A DNA stretch of 64,000 nucleotides from an uncultured Bacteroidales bacterium (GTDB lineage: Bacteria; Bacteroidota; Bacteroidia; Bacteroidales; ML635J-15), in NCBI GenBank assembly GCA_937982115.1, contig CALJNE010000031.1, positions 1-64,000 of the forward strand, in the 5' to 3' direction. Position numbers and translations under genes: made by a program. A model generated the notes under the pieces. It was not told where the DNA came from. It was given only the letters and a program-made list of their open reading frames with translations, and did no database searches. This document shows, one piece after another, positions 40,224 through 62,276 of the stretch; position 1 is the stretch's first letter; every line of letters begins with the position of its first letter.

Positions 40224-41726
40224 TTAACGAAATTTTGTAATTACATTCATCAAACTATCGGCAATAATTTGATTTCCTTTTTCGCTACAATGCCCATCGG
40301 GGAGATATAAACTTTCGTCGTTATTAAAATATTTAATAAAGATTCTTTCATTATCTTGTAATATCAATCTGTTTTCAAGTGCTATATCTCGCAAAACTGC
40401 ATTAACTCCTCCAAAAACAACATCTTTATTTTGCAATGGATAAGTCATAATTAAAACAGGAATTGAATTTTTTCTACACATTTCAATAATTGCATTAATA
40501 TCATCCCGAACCCATTCATCAACTTTATCTTTGACCGGATTTGAATTATAATTTTCCTCAATTAAAACTTCGTCTTTATCGAAATTTCTTTTCGATGTTA
40601 CACCTGCTCCAAACAATTCCTGCCAGAGAAGCTTCATAAGTTTAAAAACTCTTAAATTATATAAAAATCCTGTTTGCTTTTTGAACCCGTAATAATTCCA
40701 ATAATTAGCAGAACCTGCCATTATAATTACCAGACCTGGAGTGCTATTTGTCAAATAATTCTCGAATTCGGACCTGATTTGAAAAGTATTCTTTCCTGAC
40801 CTGCCATAGTTTAGAACAGAAATTTCGTTTCCGTAAAAATCCCTGACGAGTTTATTTAAAATTCCCGGATAACTAAGGCTGTCGGCAACTCCAAATCCCT
40901 CGGTATAACTATCACCTAAACATAAAACTTGCGTTTTGTCCCCTGAAATCCGTGAATAATCGTATGCAACAGTTTTTTGTTTGTGATAATGCCCCAAAAT
41001 TCTCAACCCGACCTCCAAAAGTAACAGAACAAAAACAAACCCCAATAAGAAACTTAAAAATTTTGAATAAATATTCTTATTTCTTAAAAAATGCTCTCTT
41101 AATTTTACTCTAAACTCTACAATTCTTGGTCGAAACAATATTGAAATCAGTAGTAATATTAAAAAAACTTCAACAATTATAGTAGCATAAAGAATCAAAC
41201 GGTACGAAATAAAACCATAGATTTTTGAATCTAAGAGGATATCAAAACCATCGTTTATGCTTTTGGGTTTTATATGATTATTAGAATTTCTAAAAATTAT
41301 TTTACAATCGGTTTTTTGATAATTCCAATCACTTTCAAATTTATTACGCGTATAAGAAAAAATTTTGTCATCATTTTTGAACCATATATGCTCAACTTTT
41401 TTCCAGGTTGCTGTGTCAACTTCAAGAAAAATTTCCGAAATATTTTTTCTAAAAATCTCATCATATCTCCAGCTTCGGTAAATGTACAGTGTATCCAATC
41501 GAAAATGCTGTTTACAATGAATATCTTCTTTTATACCGGAGTAATAATTAATACCATAAGCATCAAAATTCTTCATTTCCCTGATATTCGGACCATAAAT
41601 ATAAAAACCGACGGTTTCCGGGAAAGGAATTTTAGTACGAGACTTTGATTTTACAAATAATAATGCAGCTGCGACAACTGCAATAAATAAGAAGACAACA
41701 GATATAAGAAATATTTTTTTTCTCAT
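40224..41726 (-). CDS. Membrane-anchored SGNH/GDSL hydrolase
   Basis: From the ATG at 41726 the protein is about 500 residues. It has an N-terminal membrane helix (KIFLISVVFLFIAVVAAALLF), a soluble domain, a middle helical pair (near 185-205, LILYATIIVEVFLILLLISI, and near 230-250), then an SGNH domain. The domain has the catalytic Ser block VLCLGDSYTEGFGV, the Asn block AGSANYWNY and the D-x-H block LPDGHCSEKGNQI. SGNH enzymes of this type add or remove acyl groups on glycans. The start overlaps the carbamoyltransferase stop by four bases (ATGA), which decides against the longer frame starting at 41762. It is the last gene of the operon. Confidence 0.85.
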   Translation of the reverse strand: MRKKIFLISVVFLFIAVVAAALLFVKSKSRTKIPFPETVGFYIYGPNIREMKNFDAYGINYYSGIKEDIHCKQHFRLDTLYIYRSWRYDEIFRKNISEIFLEVDTATWKKVEHIWFKNDDKIFSYTRNKFESDWNYQKTDCKIIFRNSNNHIKPKSINDGFDILLDSKIYGFISYRLILYATIIVEVFLILLLISILFRPRIVEFRVKLREHFLRNKNIYSKFLSFLLGFVFVLLLLEVGLRILGHYHKQKTVAYDYSRISGDKTQVLCLGDSYTEGFGVADSLSYPGILNKLVRDFYGNEISVLNYGRSGKNTFQIRSEFENYLTNSTPGLVIIMAGSANYWNYYGFKKQTGFLYNLRVFKLMKLLWQELFGAGVTSKRNFDKDEVLIEENYNSNPVKDKVDEWVRDDINAIIEMCRKNSIPVLIMTYPLQNKDVVFGGVNAVLRDIALENRLILQDNERIFIKYFNNDESLYLPDGHCSEKGNQIIADSLMNVITKFR

Positions 41727-43405
41727 TGCTTTTCGATAAAGTAATTTCCAAGAACAAGGCAATCCATATCGGATTTTAGAAAATCATTTATCGCTTCTTG
41801 AGGAGAACAAACAATAGGTTCGGCTTTTAGATTAAATGAAGTATTGATAATAACCGGAATTCCGGTATGTTTTTCGTGTGTATCAAGTAATTTCCATAAT
41901 TTAGGATTATACTCTTTTTCAACAGTTTGAACCCGAGCTGTTCCGTCAATATGAGTTACTGCAGGGATTAAAGCCTTTTTTTCTTCCAGAACCTGTGGTG
42001 CCAGAAGCATAAACGGAGAATCATTCAACATCTTAAAATATTCATCAGCTTTTTCTTTATTAACGATAGGAGCAAATGGTCTGAACCACTCTCGATGTTT
42101 TATACGGGAATTCAAAATATCAACCATTTCGGGATACATTGCCGAAGCAAGGATTGAACGATTTCCCAGAGCTCTTGGTCCGAATTCCAGTCGTCCTTGC
42201 ATCCAACCAACTGTTTTTTTATCAATTATTTTTCGAGTAACAATTTCGCATAACCCATCATCAGAGTATTTAATAGCATTAAGATTATTGTATTTTATTG
42301 CTATTTCATAATCTTTATCACTAAATTCCGGTCCCCAATAAGAGTGATTAAATGTGAATTTTCTGTCGTTTTGTAAAATCTGATTATACAAATAAAATGC
42401 AGCTCCAATTGCTGCTCCGGCATCTCCGGCTCCGGGCTGTATAAAAAGTTTTTTTACATTTGTATTTTCAAGGATTTTTTGATTCGCCACACAATTCAAA
42501 AACACACCTCCAGCTAAAGCTAAATTTTGAGTTTCGTATCTTTCGCTTACGTAGCGTGCTTGTTTTATCAAAATCTCTTCAATAACCGCCTGTAAACTTG
42601 CAGCAATGTCTTTGTGTCTTTTGTCATAATCTTCATTTGGGTTTCGAGGTTGTCCCAGCAAGTCAATCATTTTTTTAGAGTACATTTTTTTTCCTTTGTT
42701 CAAAGAGAAATATTTATCGTTGAGTCTGTAGCTGCCATCATCTTTTATATCTATGATTTTTCTGAAATGTTCATAATAATTAGGTTCACCAAAGCTTGCA
42801 AGAGCCATTGTTGTACCCTCACCGCTATTAGCTTTAAAACCCAAAAATGTAGTTATGCAAGTATAAAGTAATCCAAGAGAATCGGGATAGGAGATTTGAT
42901 TCTCAAGGAAAATATTTTTTCCATCGCCATAGCCCACTGAAGATGTTGCCCACTCTCCCACTCCATCGTTAATAATAATACCTGCTTTTTCGAATTCCGA
43001 GACAAAAAAACTACTTGCAGCATGAGCATGGTGATGCGGAATAAAAACAACTTTAGATTTATATGAAATTTCACGTCGTAAAACTTCAGGAAAAATCAAT
43101 CTATCCTGTAACCATTGAGGAGTATTTCTGAGAAATGATGTATATGAAAGAGGAAATTTTTCAATAATATCGTGAATGTACCGACTAAATTTAAGGTAGG
43201 GTTTTTCATAAAATGCAATATAGTCAATTTCGGCAAAACTAATTTCACCTTGCTGAACGCAAAAATTTATAGCATTGATAGGAAAGTCAGAGGAATTTTT
43301 CACGCGATTAAATCTCTCTTCCTGAACCGCAGCAACCAACACTCCGTCTTTAACCAGACAAGCCGCCGAATCGTGATAATAACAAGATATTCCGAGTATA
43401 TTCAT
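41723..43405 (-). CDS. NodU/CmcH-family carbamoyltransferase
   Basis: The 560-residue enzyme has the N-terminal Kae1-like ATP/carbamoyl-adenylate domain (ILGISCYYHDSAACLV, VAAVQEERFNRVK, PHHHAHAASSFFVS) and the C-terminal carbamoyltransferase domain (GWMQGRLEFGPRALGNRSIL, EWFRPFAPIV, INTSFNLKAEPIV). The metal-binding His residues of the HHHAHA block are present. These enzymes transfer carbamoyl from carbamoyl phosphate to hydroxyl groups of sugars, antibiotics or toxins. Both flanks overlap by four bases. Together with the GT2, methyltransferase-like and SGNH genes, this points to decoration of a surface glycan or lipid. The acceptor is unknown. Confidence 0.92.
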   Translation of the reverse strand: MNILGISCYYHDSAACLVKDGVLVAAVQEERFNRVKNSSDFPINAINFCVQQGEISFAEIDYIAFYEKPYLKFSRYIHDIIEKFPLSYTSFLRNTPQWLQDRLIFPEVLRREISYKSKVVFIPHHHAHAASSFFVSEFEKAGIIINDGVGEWATSSVGYGDGKNIFLENQISYPDSLGLLYTCITTFLGFKANSGEGTTMALASFGEPNYYEHFRKIIDIKDDGSYRLNDKYFSLNKGKKMYSKKMIDLLGQPRNPNEDYDKRHKDIAASLQAVIEEILIKQARYVSERYETQNLALAGGVFLNCVANQKILENTNVKKLFIQPGAGDAGAAIGAAFYLYNQILQNDRKFTFNHSYWGPEFSDKDYEIAIKYNNLNAIKYSDDGLCEIVTRKIIDKKTVGWMQGRLEFGPRALGNRSILASAMYPEMVDILNSRIKHREWFRPFAPIVNKEKADEYFKMLNDSPFMLLAPQVLEEKKALIPAVTHIDGTARVQTVEKEYNPKLWKLLDTHEKHTGIPVIINTSFNLKAEPIVCSPQEAINDFLKSDMDCLVLGNYFIEKQ

Positions 43406-44007
43406 GCTTCAATTTTTTTTTCTGTCCAATTTGAATAGTATTCATTCTTAACACAAACTGCATCGGGAATAAAATCGTTTTTTAACAACATGTTCTTGTA
43501 TTCCGCAATTTGAGCCGGTCTTCCTAATAAATCAGGGCTTGCTATGCAAACTTTAAAATTGTTCTCACGAGCAGTTTTCAGATTTTCAATTTCTTTATAA
43601 ATGTCGTCGAAACAATCAACCCAAACCCATTCGGCTTTATTTTTAAGTTTAAGAACGTTTTCTATGTTCTCGTAATTTGATAATCTTACGGCAAAATTTT
43701 TATTCCCCATTTTCACAAACTCATGTATTCCGGAATAGGATAAGTCCAAAAAACAATAATTTTCAATTCGGTAATACTTAAGAATTTTGAGTATTTCGTT
43801 TTCAAAGCCGAATTCTTTGATGTTGATAATAATAAATTCATGTTTAAAATTTTTCAAAAAATCCTTCAGCCGCTCACCTTTCTCAAAAGCTTCGTGATTC
43901 AAAATTATTTCTTTTTTATAAGCTCGCACATCTATTTCTACGCCATGGATAGACGGAATTTTCACTAATTGTTCAGTACTATTTACCCTATGATTTATTA
44001 TTAACAT
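43402..44007 (-). CDS. GDPD-like (PI-PLC superfamily) TIM-barrel protein
   Basis: The 201-residue protein resembles the first half and core of glycerophosphodiester phosphodiesterases: INHRVNS at the start, GVEIDVRAYKKEIILNHE with the E-x-D pair and a following His, then EFIIINIKE and a closing PDAVCVKNEY. The signature E-x-D and His metal ligands seem present, but the usual H-R-G-x-x-x-x-x-P-E-N-T opening is altered to HRVNSTEQ. It may act on a phosphodiester in a lipid or glycan, or have lost that activity. It overlaps the GT2 gene by 20 bases and the carbamoyltransferase gene by four. Confidence 0.65.
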   Translation of the reverse strand: MLIINHRVNSTEQLVKIPSIHGVEIDVRAYKKEIILNHEAFEKGERLKDFLKNFKHEFIIINIKEFGFENEILKILKYYRIENYCFLDLSYSGIHEFVKMGNKNFAVRLSNYENIENVLKLKNKAEWVWVDCFDDIYKEIENLKTARENNFKVCIASPDLLGRPAQIAEYKNMLLKNDFIPDAVCVKNEYYSNWTEKKIEA

Positions 44008-44701
44008 AGCTCTGCTTTCGTAAATAAATGCAATATTTTAAAAATTTCAACGAAAATAATATTTTTGATATAAATCCTGTATTCCATTTAGAATTTCCGT
44101 GTTTCCTTTCGGGAAAGAACACATCTATTTCTTTAACTGTACAACCGTTCTTTAATGCTGTATAATATGCATACAAATCTAATCCCCAATGTTCAGGCGG
44201 ATTTAAAAATTTATCCATCAACGACCTGTTGAATAGCTTTGGTTGAGCATTTATTTCGAACAATTTAACTTTTAGAATTATTCTAACTAAAAACTCTAGT
44301 CCTCTGCTGAAAATTCGCTCCGAAAATTTTCTACCCAAGCGATTCCCTTTAATAAAAATATTTTTATCATTACAATTTTTAATCTGCTCAATAGCTTTAA
44401 AGACATCGGCAGGGTCTGTTTGTAAATCGGCATGAGTCCAACCTACCCATTCTCCAATGGCAGTTTTCAGTCCGGTAATTATTCCATGTCCATATCCAAT
44501 ATTTTTTTCGATATGGATTAATTTTAAATTCTTTTTCCCTTCAAGAAGTTTAGATAAGATTTCTGAAGTATTATCTGTTGAACCGTTGTTTACAAAAATA
44601 ATTTCAACTTCATCAGTTACCAATTTTGAAAAGGCAATAACCAATTCATTCAGATTTTCAGACTCGTTATAACAAGGTAATACAATCGAAAACATAACCA
44701 T
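43988..44701 (-). CDS. Family 2 glycosyltransferase
   Basis: The 237-residue enzyme has a GT-A fold of the dolichyl-phosphate-mannose-synthase type: FSIVLPCYNESENL, EIIFVNNGSTDNTSEIL, GYGHGIITGLK and a THADLQTDP metal site. There is no membrane helix, unlike many in the family. It likely moves a sugar from a nucleotide donor to a lipid or glycan. The start codon overlaps the upstream stop by one base (TAATG at 44701); an ATG six bases later is also possible. It sits in the middle of the five-gene modification operon. Confidence 0.88.
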   Translation of the reverse strand: MVMFSIVLPCYNESENLNELVIAFSKLVTDEVEIIFVNNGSTDNTSEILSKLLEGKKNLKLIHIEKNIGYGHGIITGLKTAIGEWVGWTHADLQTDPADVFKAIEQIKNCNDKNIFIKGNRLGRKFSERIFSRGLEFLVRIILKVKLFEINAQPKLFNRSLMDKFLNPPEHWGLDLYAYYTALKNGCTVKEIDVFFPERKHGNSKWNTGFISKILFSLKFLKYCIYLRKQSYVNNKS

Positions 44702-45561
44702 TATTTTATTTCCTCCAAACGTCTTTGTAAATCAACAAATTCTCCGGACAACTCATAGCCTTGAAAAAGATAACGACACCACAAATCAAATGCTTTATTT
44801 TTATCTTTTCGGTAAATGTATGCCATAACATGAGCAGCAGCAATACCTTTATGCTTTTTTTTGTTTGAAATTTTTAATGCCCAGCGAAAAGCATTATCAA
44901 TAACATTTTTGGGTATAGTTTGAAAATGAATCCGTAACAATTCATCGGGAATAGTTTTTTTATAAAAGAACCAAATTCCTCCACCGTTTTTAATGTCGTT
45001 ATAAACAATAAAATAATTTCGATGTAAATATGAAATCACCTGAACCCACGGCGTAAGATAGTGATCAAAATCCTGTTGATACACAAAGGATTTTCCGGGA
45101 ATTAAGGCTCTGTAATATTTTTCGAGAACTAATTGAGCCGCTTCTTCGGATTTCATCACATCAACAATCAAAAATTCAACTGAAGTTTGAATATTTGAAT
45201 TTCTTATATCAACAATAATTTCAATGTCTTCGATAAATTCCGACAGATTATTCCTAAACAAAGCAAGGTAGCCGTTATTTTTAAAGTATTCTTTATATGG
45301 ATGGTCTTTTAACTGGGTTTCGCATTCTTCATCCCATCTAAATGTATCGCAAGCTATCAGTTTTTGTTTTGCCTTGACAAGCTTAAGTGCCTCAAAAATA
45401 ACTAAAGTTGTTGCACCAAATCTACAACCTAAATCGGCAATAATTCCGGTTCCTGTATATTTATTTTTAACTAAATAAAATAAAAACTTAAGTTCCTCAT
45501 CACTTACCATGTGAGGAATGCCTTGTAAAAAACTAAAACTGAAATCTACTTTTTTTGACAC
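44701..45561 (-). CDS. Class I SAM-dependent methyltransferase-like protein
   Basis: The 286-residue protein is the first gene of the operon. Its N-terminal half has a Rossmann core: GIIADLGCRFGATTLVIFEA with a glycine-poor motif I, LIACDTF for the acidic strand 2, and VEFLIVDVM for strand 4. This fits Methyltransf_24-like proteins. The C-terminal third (about 195-286) is helical and has no clear relatives. Substrate is unknown; the operon suggests a sugar or lipid moiety. A near-consensus -7 sequence (TATATTTA) lies upstream on the minus strand. Confidence 0.7.
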   Translation of the reverse strand: MSKKVDFSFSFLQGIPHMVSDEELKFLFYLVKNKYTGTGIIADLGCRFGATTLVIFEALKLVKAKQKLIACDTFRWDEECETQLKDHPYKEYFKNNGYLALFRNNLSEFIEDIEIIVDIRNSNIQTSVEFLIVDVMKSEEAAQLVLEKYYRALIPGKSFVYQQDFDHYLTPWVQVISYLHRNYFIVYNDIKNGGGIWFFYKKTIPDELLRIHFQTIPKNVIDNAFRWALKISNKKKHKGIAAAHVMAYIYRKDKNKAFDLWCRYLFQGYELSGEFVDLQRRLEEIK

Positions 45562-49397: not shown

Positions 49398-51755
49398 ATG
49401 AAAAGAGTTTTAATTTTTCTATGTTCAATAGTTTTTAGTTTTTCTTTGATAAATGCACAATCAATTACGACAAATGCAAATGTCCCGTTGCAGTCTTTAA
49501 TCGCAGATACTCTTGTAAACGGATGTATTCAGGTGTCGAGTATAACAGCCAACAACGGAGCAAAAGGCTATTTTAGAAAAGGGAATTCGCAATTTCCGTT
49601 TAATTCGGGAATAATTCTTGCCACCGGAAATATCAGTAATGCACAGGGTCCAAATAGTTCAGGAAGTGCAGGAAATTCCATCGGAAGTGGTTCCGACCCT
49701 GACCTTCAGGCTTTAATCCCCGGATATACTATCAACGATGCCAGCGTTATTCAATTTGATTTCATCCCGGCAGAAAACGTGGTAACATTCAGATATATCT
49801 TTGGATCCGAAGAATTTCCAGAATACGCTAATACTAGTTTTAATGATGTATTTGGATTCTTTCTTTCGGGACCTGGTATAAACGGACCTTATTCAAATAA
49901 TGCCATAAACATAGCTATATTGCCAAACAATCAACCTGTTACTATAAACAATGTTCATAATTTTAATTATTATACTGCATATCCTACTTCAGCCTCGAAT
50001 TCTCCAGGTTCATATTATGGTGCTGTACAATATGACGGTAACACAATTGTACTAACAGCCACAGCCACAGTAATTCCTTGTCAAACCTATCATATTAAAT
50101 TAGCAATCGGAGATGCCGGAGATTCTGCATATGACTCGGGAGTTTTCATTGAATCCGGCAGCTTTATTTCAGGCGAAAGCATTTCTATAAGCAACATAGC
50201 TCAGGTTGGTAGCGAAGCTGACCTGTGGGAAGGCTGTACCAATTATTACGTTATATCCAGAGAAGAGGGGTCCGATGCACAACAAGATCTTACTATTTCA
50301 GTTGGAATTGCTCCAAATTCTACCGCTATCCAAGGGGTTGATTTTTCACCATTCCCTACTACAGTATTTATTCCTGCAGGACAAATGACTGATACAATTT
50401 GGTACACAGCCTACAACGACGGAATCGAAGAAGGTAACGAAACAATAATTGTAATGTTCTATACTGCTTGTCCGTGTGGAAACTACTCAACAGCAATATA
50501 TGATACCATCTGGATTTATGATGCAGAATTTATTAAAGGCGGTATTCAGGATATCACAACACATTATTGCGGTCAAGATCCTCCATCAACAATAACCCTT
50601 ACAGGAGAATGCAATATTGATCCTCACGTAGGATATTACTGGAGCACAGGAGCTACAACAAACAGTATTCAAATTACTCCTCAGCCCGGTGCAACTACTT
50701 ATTATGTTACAATGGTAGATCAATGTGGAAACGAAGTATATGATTCAATTACCATTAGAATTTCTAATTTGCGATTAAATTCGTATGATGTTACAGAACC
50801 TTCATGTTTTAATGCTTGCAACGCTACCATTTCTCTTAATGTCACATCCGAATTTCAACCTGTACAATATCGTTATGTTCATAGCCTATATCAGTACATT
50901 CCGGATAGTATAAGAACTTCATATTCAAGCACTTTTACAGGATTATGCCCCGGCACATATAAAATTACTGCGACTGATAATATAGGATGCTTCCAAAGAT
51001 TTGAAATTGCTGTTCCAAATCCGCCATCAATTCAGTTAGCTTATGGAATATTAGAATCTGACCAGGAATACTGTGAACGACCTGAATCAATATCCTTCAC
51101 TGCAGCATCAAATCAAAACAATCCTCAATTCCTCTGGAGCAACAATCAAACCGGAGCAACAATGACCGTACAAAACCCACCCGTTGGGGAACACACTTAT
51201 TGGGTAAAAATGTTCGACGGATGCGGCAATTTTAAACAAGATTTCGTTACAGTTAAAATTTCTGATATTAATATTCAAACTCAATCCGTAATGGATATGG
51301 GGACTTGCAACGGTTCTGTTGCTGCATTTGCATCTAATGGATTTTATCCGTACAACTATTATTGGCACAACCCAATTAACGGTTTCGGCAACATGTTCAC
51401 AAATCTTTGTGCAGGTACATATCAAGTGTTAGTTACTGATGCTATAAACTGTCAAAAAACTACAACAGTAGAGGTCCCATTGTATAACAATAATTCTGTA
51501 AATCAAACTCTTTACGATAATATATTTACAGTATTTCCTAATCCTACAAACGGCAGCTTTGTTTTAAATTTCAAAGAAAATAATCCGAATGAGATTATTG
51601 TTAAAATTACAGACGTAAAAGGCAAACTAATTTATGAATCTCAACTGCAATTTCATCAAACAACATTCGACAACTTTGTTCCGGGAGTATATTTTATAAG
51701 CCTGTATAAAAATGATGGAATTTATGCCGTTCAAAAATTAGTTGTTACTGAATAA
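49398..51755 (+). CDS. T9SS cargo with choice-of-anchor L domain
   Basis: The 785-residue product has signal peptide KRVLIFLCSIVFSFSLINAQ. Residues about 25-250 match the choice-of-anchor L family: GIILATGNISNAQGPNSSG, SVIQFDFIPAENVVTFRYIF, GSEEFPEY and DVFGFFLSGPGI. Then come a Calx-beta-like stretch (ISREEGSDAQQDLTISVGIA, DGIEEGNETIIV) and Ig/SprB-like repeats with paired Cys. It ends with a type A sorting tail (VFPNPTNGSFVLNF, then PGVYFISLYKNDG and KLVVTE). Type A tails direct export by the T9SS and anchoring to the surface. It is a single-gene unit with promoter and terminator. Confidence 0.9.
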   Translation: MKRVLIFLCSIVFSFSLINAQSITTNANVPLQSLIADTLVNGCIQVSSITANNGAKGYFRKGNSQFPFNSGIILATGNISNAQGPNSSGSAGNSIGSGSDPDLQALIPGYTINDASVIQFDFIPAENVVTFRYIFGSEEFPEYANTSFNDVFGFFLSGPGINGPYSNNAINIAILPNNQPVTINNVHNFNYYTAYPTSASNSPGSYYGAVQYDGNTIVLTATATVIPCQTYHIKLAIGDAGDSAYDSGVFIESGSFISGESISISNIAQVGSEADLWEGCTNYYVISREEGSDAQQDLTISVGIAPNSTAIQGVDFSPFPTTVFIPAGQMTDTIWYTAYNDGIEEGNETIIVMFYTACPCGNYSTAIYDTIWIYDAEFIKGGIQDITTHYCGQDPPSTITLTGECNIDPHVGYYWSTGATTNSIQITPQPGATTYYVTMVDQCGNEVYDSITIRISNLRLNSYDVTEPSCFNACNATISLNVTSEFQPVQYRYVHSLYQYIPDSIRTSYSSTFTGLCPGTYKITATDNIGCFQRFEIAVPNPPSIQLAYGILESDQEYCERPESISFTAASNQNNPQFLWSNNQTGATMTVQNPPVGEHTYWVKMFDGCGNFKQDFVTVKISDINIQTQSVMDMGTCNGSVAAFASNGFYPYNYYWHNPINGFGNMFTNLCAGTYQVLVTDAINCQKTTTVEVPLYNNNSVNQTLYDNIFTVFPNPTNGSFVLNFKENNPNEIIVKITDVKGKLIYESQLQFHQTTFDNFVPGVYFISLYKNDGIYAVQKLVVTE

Positions 51756-53650: not shown

Positions 53651-53682
53651 AAAAACTCAGGGGATTTTACTGAGTTTTTTTA
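53651..53682 (+). terminator. Terminator of the carboxyltransferase gene
   Basis: AAACTCAG (53653-53660) pairs with CTGAGTTT (53670-53677) around a 9-base loop and runs into a T-run. The next gene starts only about 25 bases later, so its promoter must overlap this region; TAATTTTG at 53681-53688 fits a -7 box but no good -33 is seen. Confidence 0.85.
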
Positions 53683-53706
53683 ATTTTGTTTTTTAATTTT
53701 TGAAAA

Positions 53707-56700
53707 TTGATTGAGGAAATAATCAAAAATATAAAATTTGAAAAGGCTTATTTTGTTATAGGTATTGACGGACCGACAGCTTCGGGAAAAACCTGTTTGG
53801 CAAAAAATATCTGTAAAAAACTTTCAGGTTTAGAAATTCCATGCTTCATTTATCAAATGGATTGGACTCTAATCGAAAGGACTAAGCGAGAAAAAGAATT
53901 CTATATTTTCAAAACTCATGAATCGGAATTTCCTTATGAATCCAATCTCCACATGAACCTTGAAAAAGCAGCGGAGTTTTTGAATAAGCTTTCACAAAAT
54001 TTCATTCCTGGTAATATTATTAAACTCGAAAATTTATACAGCCGTAATGATAATGGAAGATGTACCGGAAAGGAAACTTTTGAGCTAAAACAAAATATGG
54101 TGATAATAGTCGAAGGACATTATACTCACCATCCCGAAATTCACAATCACATTGACCTTAACATTCTTTTATATGCTGACGACGAAGAACTCATAAAAAG
54201 AAAAATCTCCCGCAGCAATTCATACCGCAATCCACAAGATGTTAGAGATTATTATTATTTAATTGATAAACCATCATTTTCACATTACTTAAAAGAAAAT
54301 TTATCCCGAATTGATTTTATAATCAATAACAATGATTATTTAAATCCTTTTCAAATCAAAAAGTCTGAATTATTTCACATACTTCAAAAACCCGATTTTT
54401 ATGTTGAAAATCCTGTAAAAGATTACTTTTCATTATCTGAGTTAAGAGATAAACAAGCGGAAGAAATCTTGGAAGAAATTTTTAATGCAATTCTTGACTT
54501 CGACAATGAAGCTGCTTATATGTGGGGAATTGCCGAAGAAATCAGAAAAAAAAGTTTTTATGAATTACTCAAAGAGAAACTAACAGGAATTGATTGCAAA
54601 ATAGTTTATAAAAATTTTAAAAATCTATATTATTCTGATATTCAATACAGCTATTCAATTGAAGTTAAAAACTATATTCACTTTAACTTAATTGCCGATA
54701 ACAAAAGTATTCTAGTTTGCGTAAAATCAAATTTTACTACTGAGCAATACATTGCTTACAGAACATTTGCTGAAAAATCAGTTAAAAGACGTGTTAAATT
54801 CACAAAAAAAGGTTTCAATCCATCAACACAACCAATACTAATTGCACCAACCGATTTTTATTCTAAAGCTTATAATTTTACGAATATACTCATTAATAAC
54901 AACAAAAATCCAATTTATTACATAAATCATCTGCAGGAAAGACCTTGCTGCATTTTATATAAAACATTCAACAGCGAGGAAGAAGCCTTTTTGATTAGAT
55001 TTTTCACGAAAAATTTTAATGTTAAGTATTCAAGGCAATACCTATTAATATATAATTCAGACTTTGACTTTAAAATATTACCAAATCAAAATTTTCACAA
55101 AATCTTCAAACCCGCGAAAGAGTTTGAATCTTCAAGTTACAATATTCCGGAAGATTTTTGCGGTTTAAAATTTAAAGACGGAGTTTACACAGGCATTTTG
55201 TGCGACAAAGAAAATTTTGCAGAAGAATTTCAGAAAACAAATACACACACAAAAAAAATATTACTTGAATATTTCCTGAGACTATACGGAGAAATTGAAA
55301 TTTTTGAAAATATAAATTTGAAAAAATTACTAAGTTTTCTACCCTCCTATTTCTCAGACCTTTATCTTGCATTGAATTTTGTGAATAATTCCGCAATAAG
55401 TTTTCTTAGTCTTTATGATTTTACTGAACATATTGACTCTAAAACATATTTAAAATTTGCCTCCCACAAAAAAATTCCGATTGGACTTCAAGTAAGTCGA
55501 AATGCACTTGATAAAAACTTAGGCTACTTAAAATTAGACGACCCTTCGAAATTTGCGGAAAGTTTATTTAATACCGTTTTATCGCATTTGCAAACTGATG
55601 AAATAAATTCAAAATTACTCTGGAATATCGGAATTGACCACATAAAACATTTTGATAATGAAACTGTTTTCAGTGAAAACGATTTTATTACGGAAATCAC
55701 TAAAAATGGATTGATTACATCTGTTTGCATTGATTTTGAACATCTGTTGAATACAAACCTTAATAATATCACTGAATATATTCTGAATTGTTTAAATAAA
55801 TTAACTTATCCGGCAGATATTGAAATTACCGGAGGAGAGAACTGTAATTTAACTCCTGAACAATGGGCGTATATTTTAAAAGAAATCCAAAAATCCGAAC
55901 CATATAAAAACCCATTATATTTGCTTGGTCCTGCATTGGGAACAAAACATCACAGTCCAGGAGAAAATTCCGAATTTCAAAAGTCGAAAGAAATTGCAGA
56001 AATATGCTCAATCAACAACTTTGCCGGAAATGTTCTGCACGGGACATCTTATACTAATGATAATGACATTAGAGAATTTGTAAAAAATAATTGCATAAGA
56101 ATAAATTTTGCCGGAAAATATCTGAATGTTTTTACAGAAAATCTTCCCTATGAGCTAAAATCTAATTTCGGTAATAATCAGGACGAAAGAAAAAAAGCGT
56201 TTGCAACAAAAAGGGAAATCCTTTCAAGACTCAATAAAGATGAAAAAGAAAAAATAGAGATAGAACTCCAAAATCTCCTCGAAAAACACCGTAATATTAT
56301 AAATACACATCAGTTAAGTGAGTTTGATTATGAATTTTTCTACAATCCGGTGTGTGATTTACCTCAGTGGTTAATTACACATATTGTTGAAAAATGCTTT
56401 CCACAAGTTGAATACAAGCAAAAATCAAATAATAAAGCATTACTTTTAGCTTCGATGATAGAGGTCCCGGACGATGACTTTATCAACGGATTAGCTAAAA
56501 GAGTATACAACAGCGGCATAAGGAATTTTCACATTGATGTTTCCTCAGAAGATTTTACTGGAAGAAATATTTGTGCTCAAAACAAATTTCAATTCTTGCA
56601 AAACTTTGATGATATAAATATTCACGTTCACATAATGGCTTTTAATCCGCATTTATCCAGTAAAGATGATTCTTCTTTGATTCAAAAATATTTATCTCCA

Positions 56701-57132
56701 AAAACTAAAGTCATTTATATTTATCGAGAAAGTTTTGATGATGAAATAGATTTTATCAAAGCATTAAATATCATAAGGTCGGCTGATGTTTTGCCGGGAA
56801 TTGTTATTGAAAACTCAAAAAAAATTACTGATTATATTCTTAATACTTTAAAAACATTAAATATAAACAATGTATTGTTGATGGCTGTTCCTGCAGGAAA
56901 AGGAGGACAAAAATTCAATCCCGTTATTTTTGAAAAAATATCACAGCTAAAGATTTTTGCAAATCAAGAACAATTTTCAATTAAAATAGAAATTGACGGT
57001 GGTATAAATCCGGAGAATGCAAAAATATGTTCAGGTTTAGGAGCAGACTACATTTCCGGATGGTCTGTTTTTATTGCCGAAGGACTCGATAAACTTGAAG
57101 ATAGAATTAAATTTTTGCTAAATGAAATTTAA
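53707..57132 (+). CDS. Kinase-aldolase-epimerase fusion enzyme
   Basis: The 1141-residue protein joins three recognisable enzyme folds. Residues 1 to about 225 are a uridine-kinase/phosphoribulokinase-like P-loop domain (Walker A GPTASGKT, 22-29; VIIVEGHYTHHP). Residues about 230-560 are not recognised. Residues about 580-880 look like a class II aldolase with zinc and catalytic residues kept: Asp644-His645 in GIDHIKH, His748 in ALGTKHHSPGE and His778 in VLHGTSYTN. Residues about 915-1141 resemble ribulose-phosphate 3-epimerase: His942 and Asp944 in FHIDV, His975 in VHIMAFNP, VPAGKGGQKFNP, and Asp1097 in EIDGGINPENA. An in-frame stop at 53701 leaves TTG at 53707 as the start. It overlaps the nucleotidyltransferase gene by 11 bases. 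Probably multistep sugar-phosphate synthesis; substrates unknown. Confidence 0.85.
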   Translation: MIEEIIKNIKFEKAYFVIGIDGPTASGKTCLAKNICKKLSGLEIPCFIYQMDWTLIERTKREKEFYIFKTHESEFPYESNLHMNLEKAAEFLNKLSQNFIPGNIIKLENLYSRNDNGRCTGKETFELKQNMVIIVEGHYTHHPEIHNHIDLNILLYADDEELIKRKISRSNSYRNPQDVRDYYYLIDKPSFSHYLKENLSRIDFIINNNDYLNPFQIKKSELFHILQKPDFYVENPVKDYFSLSELRDKQAEEILEEIFNAILDFDNEAAYMWGIAEEIRKKSFYELLKEKLTGIDCKIVYKNFKNLYYSDIQYSYSIEVKNYIHFNLIADNKSILVCVKSNFTTEQYIAYRTFAEKSVKRRVKFTKKGFNPSTQPILIAPTDFYSKAYNFTNILINNNKNPIYYINHLQERPCCILYKTFNSEEEAFLIRFFTKNFNVKYSRQYLLIYNSDFDFKILPNQNFHKIFKPAKEFESSSYNIPEDFCGLKFKDGVYTGILCDKENFAEEFQKTNTHTKKILLEYFLRLYGEIEIFENINLKKLLSFLPSYFSDLYLALNFVNNSAISFLSLYDFTEHIDSKTYLKFASHKKIPIGLQVSRNALDKNLGYLKLDDPSKFAESLFNTVLSHLQTDEINSKLLWNIGIDHIKHFDNETVFSENDFITEITKNGLITSVCIDFEHLLNTNLNNITEYILNCLNKLTYPADIEITGGENCNLTPEQWAYILKEIQKSEPYKNPLYLLGPALGTKHHSPGENSEFQKSKEIAEICSINNFAGNVLHGTSYTNDNDIREFVKNNCIRINFAGKYLNVFTENLPYELKSNFGNNQDERKKAFATKREILSRLNKDEKEKIEIELQNLLEKHRNIINTHQLSEFDYEFFYNPVCDLPQWLITHIVEKCFPQVEYKQKSNNKALLLASMIEVPDDDFINGLAKRVYNSGIRNFHIDVSSEDFTGRNICAQNKFQFLQNFDDINIHVHIMAFNPHLSSKDDSSLIQKYLSPKTKVIYIYRESFDDEIDFIKALNIIRSADVLPGIVIENSKKITDYILNTLKTLNINNVLLMAVPAGKGGQKFNPVIFEKISQLKIFANQEQFSIKIEIDGGINPENAKICSGLGADYISGWSVFIAEGLDKLEDRIKFLLNEI

Positions 57133-58588
57133 TCTTATTATACCGTCAGCAGGTAAGGGCAAAAGATTTTTAAACGCCGGATATAATGTCCATAAGGCAT
57201 TTATTGAGATTTTGAACAAAAAAATGATAAATCACGTAATTGATAAGTTTGAAAATAAAACAAATGTTTATGTAATCTGCTCAGAGTCTGAATTTTATAA
57301 TTATAAAAATGAGTTGAATACCAATATCAATATTATACCAATCAAAGAACACTTTTTAGGGCCAGCCTGGTCAATTCATTCAATAAAAGACTTCATAAAA
57401 CCAGACGAAGCTTATTTTGTCGCATACAACGATATTGTCTGGGATTGGAACTTTGAAAATTTGATAGATTTTATTCATTTTGAAAATCCCGATGGTATAA
57501 TTTTTACACACTCTGGATTTCATCCTCACTTATATAAAAATAATTTCTCAGCATTTTGTAAATGTTCAGATAATAAAGTAGTTGAAATTCGAGAAAAGCA
57601 AAGTTTTACCTCTGATTGGATGAATGAAGATTTAAGCATTGGAGTTTTCTATTTTAAAACAGGAGAAATTTTAAATAATTCCATAAATCACATTATAAAG
57701 CACGAGATAAAGGCTGCGGAAGAATTTTTTCCCAGTGTCGCATTCAATAAATTAATTTCCGATAATCTTAAAGTACTGAAATATCCTGTAAAGAATTTTA
57801 TACATTGTGGAATACCGGAACAATTTGAAGACACAATAAGATGGCAGAAAATTTTTCGGACTGAAAACCGGAATAATTCACTGACAACTTGTTTAATGAT
57901 GTGCGGAAAAGGAGAAAGAATGAAAGAATTATTCAACGAAAACAAGTCTTTCATTGAAATTGACAAAATGCCACTTTATAAGTTCGTATTAAAAAAATAC
58001 AATTCAGATAAATCTTGTTGTATTGTTAATAATAATACAATAAAACATTTAGATAAAAACATAAATTTTTACAATATCGGAGAAGAAACATCTTCACAAA
58101 CCGAAAGCATAAAAAAAGCAGTGAACTATCTGAAAAAACTGCAAAATACGATTTTAAGCTCTAATGATTGCTATGCTCTATTTGATATTAATAAATTATT
58201 ATCTGTGTCAAAAAATGCAGACATTGTAATTTTTGGTTTTATTCCGAGTCTGTTGCAATCAAAGCAAGAAAATGCCCATACATCATTCACTATAGATAAT
58301 GACGAAAATGTGAGAGAAATACATTTCAAAAAGTTTGTACAGAATACTTATGGTTTTGGCGGGATGGTATTTTTCAGAGACGGGAAAATTTTTGGAAACA
58401 TATTAAATATTGATACCAGGACATCACCAAGCCTCGACCATTTTGTTGAATATTTGATTGAAAATAAATATATAGTAAAATATATTTTATGTGATTATTA
58501 TGTACATTTAGGGACTCCAGAAGAATTTAAAGAATATTTATATTGGAAAGATTTTTTTAACTCAACAAAAAAAGGCTGTCAAAATTGA
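57122..58588 (+). CDS. Tandem double nucleotidyltransferase
   Basis: The 488-residue protein holds two sugar-nucleotidyltransferase-like domains in a row. The first (1 to about 240) starts with IIPSAGKGKRFLNAGYNVHK, the G-x-G-x-R-F nucleotide loop with its following Lys, and has a VAYNDIVWDW metal-site strand. The second (about 253-485) starts CLMMCGKGERMKELFNENK and is more diverged; its metal-site region reads DCYALFDIN. Each domain ends with a similar segment (HCGIPEQFEDTIRWQKIF and HLGTPEEFKEYLYWKDFF), so the protein arose by internal duplication. Such enzymes activate sugar or alcohol phosphates with NTP. The gene overlaps the fusion enzyme by 11 bases, so its substrate is probably that enzyme's product. 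The stop lies inside the terminator stem. Confidence 0.85.
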   Translation: MKFNLIIPSAGKGKRFLNAGYNVHKAFIEILNKKMINHVIDKFENKTNVYVICSESEFYNYKNELNTNINIIPIKEHFLGPAWSIHSIKDFIKPDEAYFVAYNDIVWDWNFENLIDFIHFENPDGIIFTHSGFHPHLYKNNFSAFCKCSDNKVVEIREKQSFTSDWMNEDLSIGVFYFKTGEILNNSINHIIKHEIKAAEEFFPSVAFNKLISDNLKVLKYPVKNFIHCGIPEQFEDTIRWQKIFRTENRNNSLTTCLMMCGKGERMKELFNENKSFIEIDKMPLYKFVLKKYNSDKSCCIVNNNTIKHLDKNINFYNIGEETSSQTESIKKAVNYLKKLQNTILSSNDCYALFDINKLLSVSKNADIVIFGFIPSLLQSKQENAHTSFTIDNDENVREIHFKKFVQNTYGFGGMVFFRDGKIFGNILNIDTRTSPSLDHFVEYLIENKYIVKYILCDYYVHLGTPEEFKEYLYWKDFFNSTKKGCQN

Positions 58589-58616: not shown

Positions 58617-61600
58617 TTATTCTTTAACAAATTTAATAATTGCATATTGGTCATCTTTTATAACTTTAACAAAATACATACCTGCAGATAATTTGCTGAT
58701 GTTAATAGAAACATTTTCAGAGTCGTAGGTATTATCAATAATAACTTTACCGGAAATCTCCATAACAGTTACTCTGTCAATACCATCAGGTAAGTTAACA
58801 TTAATAATATCCGAAGCAGGATTTGGATAAACTGATAATTTTTCAGCAAAATTATCCTGAACAGAGCTAACCACCACAACGTCGCTTTCACGACGGTAAT
58901 TCAAGGTATAAGCACCATAAGAATAATGCATTACACCAATTATGTTATAAACAGCATTTAATTGTTCATCGAAACTGAAAGCCCCATTATCTTTACATAA
59001 TAAATCTCCGCTGCCATCGTTTACTCTCCACTGACCATAAGCCATATTAGCTTCGATACAAGTAGCATTTTCAACTTTTACAAGACAAGCTTCATATTTT
59101 TCAGCACTTACTTCACCTGTTGGAACAAGCACTGGAGCAGCAACAATACCATCTGGAGCAACAACCGAAAAATAAGTAATATCTTTGATTTCGGTCATTC
59201 CAAAGTTTTCGTTAACTTTACCTGCAATTACAACAGAATCACCAATAGCAGGAGAATTAGTTAAATCATAAACATAAATACTCTTCCATTCACCTCCGCC
59301 TTGTTGAACATAATAACCTTTATGATAAGGAGTTCCGTTGAAATTTGCAGATACAACACCACGAATCCAAACATTTTGTCCGTTTAATGGAGAATTACCA
59401 TTTGTATTTGTAGTATATTGAATATCGTATATATCAGTATATGTTGGACCTGATAAATCAACAGTAAAATTAAGAATTACAAGAACAGGATTAGCAAGAG
59501 GATTATTAGACATATCAACAAGTTCCAATCTCAGCGAATGAGGACCTGCAGTGAGACCGGTTAATAAAATCGGACTGGCAGTAACATAAGAAGTTTCACC
59601 ACCATCAAGCGACCAGGCAACTTTACCGTCGGTTCCTAAGGTGAAATTAGTTACAGTAAATTCAACATTCAAATTGTCAACATAAACGGTGGAATTGTTA
59701 GCAGGAGAATTAACTGTTAACATTGGAGAAGTAGAAGGTCCGTTATTAACAATATCATCAGCACTTCTCGGTAAAATTTTCCATTCGCTGTAGGAATAAT
59801 ACAATATACCTGTAACAGTGTAAGAATTATTTGCAGTAGGAGTTGGATAAGAATAAAGAACATCGTCAACAAGAATTTCGCCACTGCCATCGTTTAAAAC
59901 AAACATTCCATAACCTGCATTTGGATTAGTGCAAACACCTGTTACTCTTACAAGAGTACTTTCGTGTTGTTCCTGACCAACAGAACCGGTTTGTAAAACT
60001 GTAGGATTAGCAACAGGATTACCGGAACTCAATATTTCTAATGAATAAACAGGACTAATTTCAGTTAGATTGAAATACTCAACAACTTTACCATTAACTA
60101 TTACAGAATCTCCAATTTGCGGTCCTGGAGTTACAGTATAATACACATAAATACCATTCCAAGGTCCGTAACCATCTTGCAACCAGAATTTATCGCCGTA
60201 AACAGCTGAAACAACACCACGAGTTGTAACAATTTGATTTACTAAAGGAGAATTTCCGTTTGGATCTTCAGTATATTGAATTTCATAAATTGTTGTTATT
60301 GTTGGCAAGGCAATTGTAAAACTTACAGAAGCAGTAACATCCGGATTAAGTGGTTGATCAGACATATCAACAAGCTGAAGAGTTACTGTGTAGTTACCTT
60401 CTGCCAATCCTGTTAAAGAAATTGGTGAACTTGTAGTAAACTGAGCTGCATCACCATTTACCTGATATTTAACTTTTCCGTCGGTACCGAGATTAAAATT
60501 GACAACATTAAACACAATGTTAACATCTTGAGAACTTAATGTAGAACCATTAGCAGGTGCTGTAATTGATATAAAAGGATCTGTTCCTAAGTATCCTGTC
60601 CATGAAATATCATCAATAGTAACTTGACGATTTGTTTCAGTAGTGCTAACAGGTTTTATCATCATAACAAAATCACCGGGAATATTGATATCCTGAACGG
60701 AGAAAGTATAAATAGTTTCATCAGCACCTGTGAATGCACCAAATTCCTGAGAGGTAGCAATAAGATTTCCATTAATATATAATTCCAATTGACGAGGAGT
60801 AGATCCTGTAAATGCTTTACGCATTTTTAGTTGAAAACTGCCAATACCTCCTGAAATTGGAGCTGATTGCAATTTACTGTCGCTACCTCTACGTAACATC
60901 AAACCTTTACCGTTGATTGGATAATCGCCCTCATTTCTTGAATGAAAGTAATTCCAAACAATGTCATTATTTCCGACAAAACTTCCATCGGCATAAGAAG
61001 CAGTTGCATTGCAGTTATCAAATGTTTCCATACCTCCCGGAGCAGGCTCAACACAAGTAAATGTTACAGAGGCACTAACATCAGGAGTAAGAGGATTATT
61101 TGACATATTTACCAATTGAAGTTCAACAGTATGTGAGGCGTAAGAAAGTCCTGTTAATAAAATAGGATTGTTAATTAAATGATACTCTGCCGCACCGCCG
61201 TCAACAGTGTATTTAATTTTTCCGTCAGTTCCTAAAATAAAGTTTGTAACAGCAAAATTAATAGCAACATCCTGCGAATATACATTAGCTCCGTTTGCAG
61301 GAGAAATTATGGTTAATTCGGGATCGGTACTCAGAACGACGAAGTTAACAATTCTTGTAACAACTACTGCCGGATCAAGAGCTTGATTACTCATATCAAC
61401 AAGCTGCATATTGATTGTGTTAGATCCTTCTACGAGTCCGGTAAGATTATAAGGAGAAGTTGTGGTATAAACAGGAGCCCCTCCGTTTAGAACAATTTCC
61501 AATTTACCATCTGTACCTAAATTAAAGTTTGTTGTAGAAAATACAATATTAACATTATCTTCATTTACTTCGAGATTATTTACGGGAGCAGAAACGTTTA

Positions 61601-62159
61601 ATGTTGGTGTTCCTCCTGATACAGGATACCAAGTAAAATTATCTACCATTATTCTTTCAGTAGTACCTGTATTTCTGATTCTAATTTGCAAATCTACTGC
61701 GGCACTATTTATTGATGCAGAATAAGTGTACCAATCGCTTGTTTGCAATAATGTTCCATCAATGGATGGCAAAGCAGTCCAATCTGTTCCGTTTTCGGAA
61801 TATTCCACAACGAAATTCGGCATAGGGTCACCATCCCAACGACGAACTTTAAATTCAAAATTAGAAACTCCACCTGCTGCTATTTGAATGGTTAAAGATG
61901 CATTTGCCACATTTCTGATTCTAAATGCATACTCTCCGAAAGTTTTTGGATAACCATCCTGATCGCCGGCAGTTTCTCTTAGAACATTGCTACCTTGAAA
62001 ATAAATTCCGGGACCTTGATAAGCATGTGTGCCATAAGCGGTAAAAGCAACACTTGGGTCTTTTACCCAATTTTCGACTGTTTCAAAGTCAACAGTTGTC
62101 TGAGAATAGCCTAAAATTCCGAGACAAACAAATGCAATTAAAAAATACAATTTTTTCAT
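58617..62159 (-). CDS. Modular T9SS cargo with Ig-like repeats and OB-like domains
   Basis: The product is about 1180 residues with signal peptide KKLYFLIAFVCLGILGYSQ; ATG 62159 is preferred to 62165. Modules in order: a jelly-roll domain (VDFETVENWVKDPSVAF); two Ig-like repeats; a second jelly-roll (METFDNCNATASYADGSF); a third Ig-like repeat; an OB-like domain (VVSAVYGDKFWLQDG, VNDGSGE-type end); a fourth Ig-like repeat; a second OB-like domain (VVSANFNGTPYHKGYYVQQG); and a type A sorting tail (LSVYPNPASDIINVNL, LSAGMYFVKVIKD). Every Ig repeat carries an N-F-x-L-G-T-D-G-K signature. The OB-like pair resembles domains in secreted nucleases of Bacteroidota, but no nuclease catalytic domain is present. 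Likely a surface-exposed binding protein. Confidence 0.88.
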   Translation of the reverse strand: MKKLYFLIAFVCLGILGYSQTTVDFETVENWVKDPSVAFTAYGTHAYQGPGIYFQGSNVLRETAGDQDGYPKTFGEYAFRIRNVANASLTIQIAAGGVSNFEFKVRRWDGDPMPNFVVEYSENGTDWTALPSIDGTLLQTSDWYTYSASINSAAVDLQIRIRNTGTTERIMVDNFTWYPVSGGTPTLNVSAPVNNLEVNEDNVNIVFSTTNFNLGTDGKLEIVLNGGAPVYTTTSPYNLTGLVEGSNTINMQLVDMSNQALDPAVVVTRIVNFVVLSTDPELTIISPANGANVYSQDVAINFAVTNFILGTDGKIKYTVDGGAAEYHLINNPILLTGLSYASHTVELQLVNMSNNPLTPDVSASVTFTCVEPAPGGMETFDNCNATASYADGSFVGNNDIVWNYFHSRNEGDYPINGKGLMLRRGSDSKLQSAPISGGIGSFQLKMRKAFTGSTPRQLELYINGNLIATSQEFGAFTGADETIYTFSVQDINIPGDFVMMIKPVSTTETNRQVTIDDISWTGYLGTDPFISITAPANGSTLSSQDVNIVFNVVNFNLGTDGKVKYQVNGDAAQFTTSSPISLTGLAEGNYTVTLQLVDMSDQPLNPDVTASVSFTIALPTITTIYEIQYTEDPNGNSPLVNQIVTTRGVVSAVYGDKFWLQDGYGPWNGIYVYYTVTPGPQIGDSVIVNGKVVEYFNLTEISPVYSLEILSSGNPVANPTVLQTGSVGQEQHESTLVRVTGVCTNPNAGYGMFVLNDGSGEILVDDVLYSYPTPTANNSYTVTGILYYSYSEWKILPRSADDIVNNGPSTSPMLTVNSPANNSTVYVDNLNVEFTVTNFTLGTDGKVAWSLDGGETSYVTASPILLTGLTAGPHSLRLELVDMSNNPLANPVLVILNFTVDLSGPTYTDIYDIQYTTNTNGNSPLNGQNVWIRGVVSANFNGTPYHKGYYVQQGGGEWKSIYVYDLTNSPAIGDSVVIAGKVNENFGMTEIKDITYFSVVAPDGIVAAPVLVPTGEVSAEKYEACLVKVENATCIEANMAYGQWRVNDGSGDLLCKDNGAFSFDEQLNAVYNIIGVMHYSYGAYTLNYRRESDVVVVSSVQDNFAEKLSVYPNPASDIINVNLPDGIDRVTVMEISGKVIIDNTYDSENVSINISKLSAGMYFVKVIKDDQYAIIKFVKE

Positions 62160-62276
62160 AAACATTTAATTTAATTTTTTTGTAAAAATACATCAATTTC
62201 TTTTAAGTTAACGTTAAAAAAACAAAAAAAATGATGAGGAAAATATTCTCAATTTTTGAATATTACAAATATATTA

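Follow-up and report, generated by a model that had tools for sequence, protein, structure and literature searches.

Two overlapping genes on the forward strand of a 64,000-nucleotide stretch of DNA from an uncultured Bacteroidales bacterium (contig CALJNE010000031.1; the whole stretch is hereafter called the window) encode a fusion of kinase, aldolase and epimerase domains and a protein with two nucleotidyltransferase (NT) domains. The domains have conserved catalytic residues, the two genes are inherited together, and in relatives they lie among genes of the glycan type. With moderate confidence, drawn from sequence comparison, we propose that the pair specifies a fused pathway acting on ketose phosphates, probably pentulose phosphates, which would feed a nucleotide-activated precursor of a surface glycan. 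The activity of every domain, as well as the substrates, the direction of the reactions, the nucleotide and the final sugar, we infer.

The fusion gene (53707..57132, + strand), delimited by its open reading frame (ORF), Pfam matches and homologues, starts with TTG and encodes 1141 amino acids. The initial annotation had read a kinase, a class II aldolase and a ribulose-phosphate 3-epimerase (RPE)-like domain in this single frame, and all three scored above their Pfam gathering scores. The kinase, of the PRK/uridine-kinase type, occupies residues 17–207 (53755..54327, + strand; PF00485, E 1.8e-9, 38.1 bits vs. a gathering score of 22) and has in common with that family the Walker A motif GIDGPTASGKT, D52 and E136-G137. 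D52, E136 and all Walker A letters except S26 were invariant in the five members that reach this region. The class II fructose-bisphosphate aldolase (FBA)-type domain covers residues 579–841 (55441..56229, + strand; PF01116, E 3.1e-11, 43.7 bits vs. 25.5). It shares with class II FBAs an Asp-His pair (D644, H645) and two further histidines at ligand positions (H748, H778), which we take to be the catalytic aspartate and the three zinc ligands. The RPE-like domain covers residues 930–1116 (56494..57054, + strand; PF00834, E 8.5e-24, 84.5 bits vs. 21.1) and shares with RPEs H942, D944, H975, D1097, the GxGGQ loop and D-G-G. This domain was checked by sequence profile (A6), which retrieved solved RPEs from the PDB sequences, down to E 9.9e-24. 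The eight aldolase and RPE residues, all singled out in the initial annotation, are indeed present and were invariant in all six aligned sequences.

Between kinase and aldolase lies a segment of about 300 residues without a recognised family (residues ~211–510; 54337..55236, + strand) in searches of PDB sequences, Pfam and profiles. Residues ~205–512 had no PDB-sequence match up to E 10, and in a Pfam scan of five members the best E was 0.038, to a P-loop NTPase model in one member. A profile of the segment retrieved the bacterium's own genome and no other among 198 genomes of the phylum. An AlphaFold model of residues 196–895 had a pLDDT of 35.0 and was not used. Thus, the earlier account of the domains stands for the kinase, the aldolase, the RPE and the two NT domains, all seen by Pfam, while it had omitted this segment and a set of companion genes at 40224–45561.

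The second gene (57122..58588, + strand) starts with ATG and encodes 488 amino acids, with one NT domain at residues ~5–237 and another at ~255–480. PF12804 (NTP_transf_3) matched it in two stretches (E 1.5e-11, 45.2 bits vs. a gathering score of 27), and against NCBIfam both domains resemble sugar-1-phosphate nucleotidyltransferases. The 11-bp overlap with the fusion gene reported in the initial annotation was found at 57122–57132, and it is kept in five of the six genomes that carry the fusion (the bacterium's own, G003, G014, G018 and G020); in the sixth, G011, two other ORFs stand between the genes. The fusion homologues in the five other genomes are 36–82% identical to the window protein, four of them at 36–37%. 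They are full length in G003, G011, G014 and G018, and the G020 copy ends at a contig end. PF00834 and PF01116 matched all six members (E <= 0.1) and PF00485 matched five, the remaining one having lost its N-terminus to the contig end. Since five other genomes carry the same fusion, a frame-shift or an assembly artefact was ruled out. None of the component families of the fusion is new. A kinase-FBA-RPE fusion was not found described in the titles and abstract openings of open-licence literature, a source from which absence can be argued weakly.

The fusion is present in 6 of 31 genomes of the family, all of one genus, and a protein search of 100 genomes likewise returned six, the bacterium's own included. 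The fusion, the NT pair and a companion gene of 196–201 codons occur in these same 6 of 31 genomes and in no other; in the window the companion encodes 201 amino acids (43402..44007, − strand) and has no Pfam match. We call it GDPD-like by eye, a label with no Pfam match behind it. Because the genes are linked in most carriers, their co-occurrence does not amount to three independent tests. The gene order is the same in G003 (where it spans two contigs), G018 and G020: fusion, NT pair, a protein of about 490 amino acids that we take to be a lipoprotein, methyltransferase, GT2 glycosyltransferase and companion. Beyond the companion, on the opposite strand, these three genomes have a protein of about 400 amino acids, a radical SAM/SPASM protein and an asparagine synthase. 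G011 has the same gene set as the G018-type locus, with insertions, among them the two ORFs that separate fusion and NT gene, and with a broken companion (L035, G011:C12:101633-102217) that contains two in-frame stops. Overall, the neighbourhoods of the fusion in relatives include genes for GT2, asparagine synthase, radical SAM, aminotransferase and carbamoyltransferase proteins; the rhamnose and polymerase/flippase gene names that we use for these loci are, like the lipoprotein label, provisional ones given by eye. Genes for a beta-ketoacyl synthase, a FabA-like dehydratase and a DegT aminotransferase also lie near the fusion in G018 (L015) and, by eye, in G011 (L013), and the glycan there is perhaps acylated or lipid-linked.

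Besides the fusion, the genome encodes an ordinary class II FBA and, judged by sequence, an ordinary RPE and an ordinary uridine kinase; therefore the fusion is not a housekeeping copy, and a role as the cell's FBA or RPE was ruled out. All distribution counts refer to the Bacteroidota samples searched. No further fusion was found in a sample of 393 genomes of the order, in which three RPE-only matches appeared (G040, G502, G526); that sample did not include the five known carriers, whose fusions the search would have picked up. The aldolase profile retrieved only the bacterium's own genome among 198 of the phylum, and a search of genome contigs with strict single-sequence patterns returned one relative (L009, LUZK01000050.1, ‘Bacteroidales bacterium Bact_19’), whose match position is the same as that of G014. 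Among plasmids, 38 records matched the fusion, none with 80% cover, and the best 20 of the 38 matched the RPE part only; residues 205–895 had no plasmid match. Nine phage records matched the RPE part only, with no kinase-aldolase-RPE fusion among them, and no match of viral contigs to the fusion and NT profiles was confirmed.

Loci with a related NT pair were found in another family. A profile of the pair searched against 395 genomes of the phylum returned only G229 and G332 at E <= 1e-30, and against 249 genomes of their family it returned six at E <= 1e-25. The two-domain protein is present in four of these (G229, G332, G907 and G1041); G860 and G960 have two separate single-domain NT genes and were not counted. 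The window NT pair aligns with the G229 protein over both domains (E 6e-49), and a profile of the companion searched against 390 genomes of the phylum gave strong matches in G229 and G332 and weak ones in G178 and G390. In all four loci the NT pair is found with a GT2, the companion gene and a PF00596 aldolase (E 7.4e-12 to 4.5e-15), as well as with a two-part protein, one part of which is a PRK domain (E 1.2e-38 to 9.1e-45) and the other hydrophobic (L021 6024-8123; L022 5459-7555; L055 6800-8929; L056 4648-6747). In three of the four the hydrophobic part matched GT87 or ALG-type glycosyltransferases, one of them below the cut-off. The G229 kinase scored 231.2 bits against the NCBIfam phosphoribulokinase, just below the cut-off of 236. 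The best model for the adjoining HAD was ribulose 1,5-bisphosphate (RuBP) 5-phosphatase (175.1 bits vs. a cut-off of 330), and the best for the aldolase was the RhaD-type bifunctional aldolase/dehydrogenase (70.3 bits vs. 931). The corresponding proteins in G907 and G1041 we take, by eye, to be HADs. The theme shared by the window and the G229-type loci is a kinase, an aldolase of the type that uses dihydroxyacetone phosphate (DHAP), and an NT pair.

A related chemistry has been reported in haloarchaea, where, as Sato et al. (2022, PMC9700705) showed, an operon of a HAD and a FucA-like enzyme converts RuBP to ribulose 1-phosphate (Ru1P) and then to DHAP and glycolaldehyde. The G229 locus parallels that non-carboxylating pentose bisphosphate pathway in that its RuBP-phosphatase-like HAD stands next to a PF00596 aldolase, and the chemistry that we propose around pentulose phosphates is alike. 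The haloarchaeal pathway differs in being degradative and archaeal, in using a ribose 1,5-bisphosphate isomerase, and in having separate genes. In contrast to it, the window locus has an FBA-type aldolase and an RPE, and no phosphatase was recognised there. In view of the G229 kinase, HAD and aldolase and of the haloarchaeal operon, a glycan locus of the G229 type may hold a route from ribulose 5-phosphate (Ru5P) through RuBP and Ru1P to DHAP and glycolaldehyde.

The NT pair was also found in cyanophages. Among 50,697 records it matched 17, all from Synechococcus phages, and in four of these the match had at least 80% query cover (two phages, two records each). The proteins of Bellamy (gp209) and S-SM2 (SSM2_204) are 27–28% identical to the window pair over 98% of its length (1e-53), with both NT domains. 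Two genes after the pair both phages have a PF00596-type aldolase, which resembles that of G229 (5.6e-10 and 6.4e-11); the intervening gene in Bellamy is a GT61. The Bellamy aldolase gave weak matches to models of L-ribulose-5-phosphate 4-epimerase (62.7 bits), the RhaD type (49.5) and the haloarchaeal Ru1P aldolase (47.8). Upstream, Bellamy has a KdsC-like phosphatase, a weak PfkB match and a fusion of an NT with ribose-5-phosphate isomerase B (gp206; L061 6770-7927). In S-CAM9 a HAD is fused with an NT (L063 6344-7729). The phages are unlike the window in that no kinase-aldolase-RPE fusion was found among the matches.

Herein, we describe how the two genes could encode the initial steps of an accessory surface-glycan locus. 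The RPE-like domain would epimerise C3 of a ketose phosphate, such as Ru5P, xylulose 5-phosphate (Xu5P) or a relative, and the kinase domain would phosphorylate the ketose phosphate to a bisphosphate. The FBA-type aldolase domain would then make or cut the C3–C4 bond, with DHAP as one partner. Being of the bisphosphate type, it would need no earlier dephosphorylation, and the products would be DHAP and glycolaldehyde phosphate. The two-domain NT would activate a resulting phosphate as a nucleoside diphosphate (NDP) derivative, and the GT2 resembling dolichol-phosphate mannose synthase (43988–44701) may hand the NDP-activated unit to a polyprenyl-phosphate carrier. The specific step from Xu5P or Ru5P through a pentulose 1,5-bisphosphate to DHAP and glycolaldehyde phosphate is a tentative suggestion, to which we give a minority chance; it is made by analogy, because in the sister loci a homologous NT is accompanied by a domain like phosphoribulokinase, a HAD like RuBP 5-phosphatase and an aldolase of the DHAP type. 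The product may also be of the cytidine diphosphate (CDP)-ethanolamine or CDP-polyol type.

A number of observations weigh against this reading, several of them bearing on the aldolase domain. An hhalign comparison with the genome's own FBA paired D644, H645, H748 and H778 with its TDH, NVHG and FHGGS motifs, although the probability was 1.6%, and the own FBA has HGGS vs. HGTS in the fusion. The score against the ketose-bisphosphate aldolase model TIGR00167 was 27.4 bits, vs. a cut-off of 215.6. A PDB sequence search with the whole protein gave RPEs and kinases, with no aldolase at E <= 1, and the aldolase-domain profile gave two chance matches among PDB sequences and no aldolase. Unlike known class II aldolases, the domain is fused between a segment of no recognised family and an RPE domain. 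Structure prediction and a fold search had been suggested as a check in the initial annotation, and for the aldolase domain the AlphaFold model, built from two sequences, was of low confidence (mean pLDDT 43.8, pTM 0.42). All 14 PDB chains that Foldseek matched to this poor model at E <= 0.001 were class II fructose- or tagatose-bisphosphate aldolases (best 7.1e-5). With the same model, VIA-align placed class II FBAs in rows 1–20, with Z from 8.7 (rmsd 4.6, 218 aligned) to 7.8; row 21 was dihydrodipicolinate synthase at Z 7.8, so that other TIM barrels were tied with class II FBAs within 1 Z unit. The best matches of the check were thus class II aldolases, found with a poor model and with such a tie. 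Taken together, the assignment of the middle domain as a class II aldolase is supported by Pfam and the residues, and the fold search, which is not decisive by itself, points the same way.

The other domains and loci also hold points of this kind. In the RPE domain, which scored 82.3 bits against the equivalog TIGR01163 (cut-off 212.6), Gly or Ser replaces the Met that follows H-x-D-[VI] in RPEs, and the late loop has GWS instead of the GSS of the genome's own RPE; therefore its substrate may not be Ru5P, and a different ketose is quite possible. The fusion scored 13.6 bits against phosphoribulokinase PRK07429 (cut-off 236) and its kinase hardly aligns with that of G229 (BLASTP E 0.092), so the parallel between the two would be one of supposed function and not of descent. 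As for what the window kinase resembles, it scored 45.2 bits vs. the NCBIfam cut-off of 180 for uridine kinase, and the closest solved structure to its profile is 1rz3, a PDB entry for a hypothetical protein. Of the sister loci, G229 alone was compared with NCBIfam. A PRK kinase is absent from the phage loci; Bellamy has an annotated GHMP kinase in addition to its weak PfkB match. Four further loci (L042, L043, L057 and L058), which by eye we take to be polysaccharide loci, combine one or two NT genes with a HAD and a companion-like gene but have no kinase or aldolase; thus the NT step does not require aldolase chemistry. The HAD of the one locus tested among them is nearest to beta-phosphoglucomutase. 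In the window itself, the companion genes lie 8–13 kb from the pair, beyond unrelated genes, and next to the pair we recognised neither a phosphatase nor a reductase.

Other explanations of the pair must be considered. The initial annotation had tentatively placed carbon–carbon bond formation before epimerisation; from the sister loci, the splitting of a pentulose phosphate is as plausible as the building of a sugar. Close to that order would be a synthetic pathway, in which the aldolase condenses DHAP with an aldehyde such as glyceraldehyde phosphate or erythrose phosphate, and the hexulose or heptulose phosphate so formed is epimerised by the RPE domain and activated by the NT. In its favour are the reversibility of aldol reactions and the likeness of the domain to bisphosphate aldolases and of the NT domains to sugar-1-phosphate nucleotidyltransferases. 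However, the phosphoribulokinase-like and RuBP-phosphatase-like enzymes of G229 point to pentulose phosphates, and in the window genes that were scanned we recognised neither an isomerase nor a mutase able to supply a sugar 1-phosphate; we judge the synthetic direction rather unlikely. It is somewhat less likely still that one or more domains are inactive and serve as scaffold or binding modules, with the real function residing in the kinase or in the segment of no recognised family. This would agree with scores that all fall far under the NCBIfam cut-offs and with changes, in the RPE and aldolase domains, to loops whose counterparts in relatives bind phosphate; against it, the metal ligands and catalytic acids are invariant in all six sequences, including the four at 36–37% identity to the window protein.

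The pair could also be a catabolic or salvage enzyme for pentose phosphates with no link to glycans, next to an NT gene by chance. An RPE, a pentulose kinase and an aldolase would together channel carbon into glycolysis, much as the haloarchaeal pathway does (PMC9700705), and the nearest window gene upstream is pyruvate carboxylase subunit B-like. We regard this as improbable, since the fusion occurs in just 6 of 31 family genomes, each time with the NT pair and the companion gene, since the relatives' copies lie among the glycan-type genes listed above (GT2, asparagine synthase, radical SAM, aminotransferase, carbamoyltransferase), and since the genome has a separate FBA and RPE. We retain the fused ketose phosphate pathway as our preferred explanation. 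As to the earlier proposal of a compact pathway to an activated unit of a surface glycan, the neighbourhood and the co-occurrence of the genes support it, and its substrate, product and nucleotide are still a matter of inference.

The companion genes of the window all lie on the − strand. Next to the 201-residue companion is a GT2 resembling polyprenyl-phosphate-sugar synthases (43988..44701; PF00535, E 6.2e-23), whose profile (A9) has dolichol-phosphate mannose synthase as its best PDB match (3.4e-21), with ArnC-type transferases also among the best. Adjoining it is a methyltransferase-like protein, a conserved neighbour of the module (44701..45561; PF13578, below the cut-off). On the other side are a carbamoyltransferase of the NodU type (41723..43405; PF02543, E 1e-81) and a GDSL-like lipase/acylhydrolase (40224..41762; PF13472, E 1.3e-12). 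A stretch of 9.7 kb separates the companion gene from the fusion; it includes comEC and genes that we take by eye to be def and ruvX. No aminotransferase was recognised beside the pair in the window, and no HAD was found among 13 window proteins scanned with Pfam. A 162-residue ORF that looks HAD-like by eye lies about 6.5 kb past the NT gene on the same contig (L017 1103-1591).

A hairpin resembling a terminator (AAACTCAG...CTGAGTTT, then a run of T) lies directly upstream of the fusion (53653–53707). After it, TAATTTTG at 53681–53688 resembles TAnnTTTG, the Bacteroidetes promoter motif; this promoter-like sequence would place the transcript start very close to the TTG start codon of the fusion. 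The pair is flanked by genes for large secreted proteins (49398–51755 and 58617–62165), whose C-terminal ends resemble, by eye, the sorting segments of type IX secretion.

On a wider scale, one may speculate that a dedicated route has arisen on more than one occasion in bacteria and cyanophages, with members of two aldolase families and with kinases of different kinds. It would split pentulose (bis)phosphates, or run in reverse, and lead by way of DHAP and a C2 aldehyde to an activated unit for surface glycans. In the Bacteroidales version, a single polypeptide, the new domain of about 300 residues would hold or channel the intermediates, and the unit would be an undescribed precursor; we put this forward tentatively, as a doubtful but possible generalisation. 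If the proposed reading is right, the pentose phosphate pool would be linked, by a route that lends itself to testing, with an as yet undescribed activated glycan unit, and RuBP/Ru1P-type chemistry, described for haloarchaeal nucleoside degradation (PMC9700705), would have been drawn into the synthesis of surface glycans. The fused enzyme would then be a ready catalyst for multi-step ketose chemistry. The NT pair together with the companion gene offers a marker for such loci in bacteria and cyanophages.

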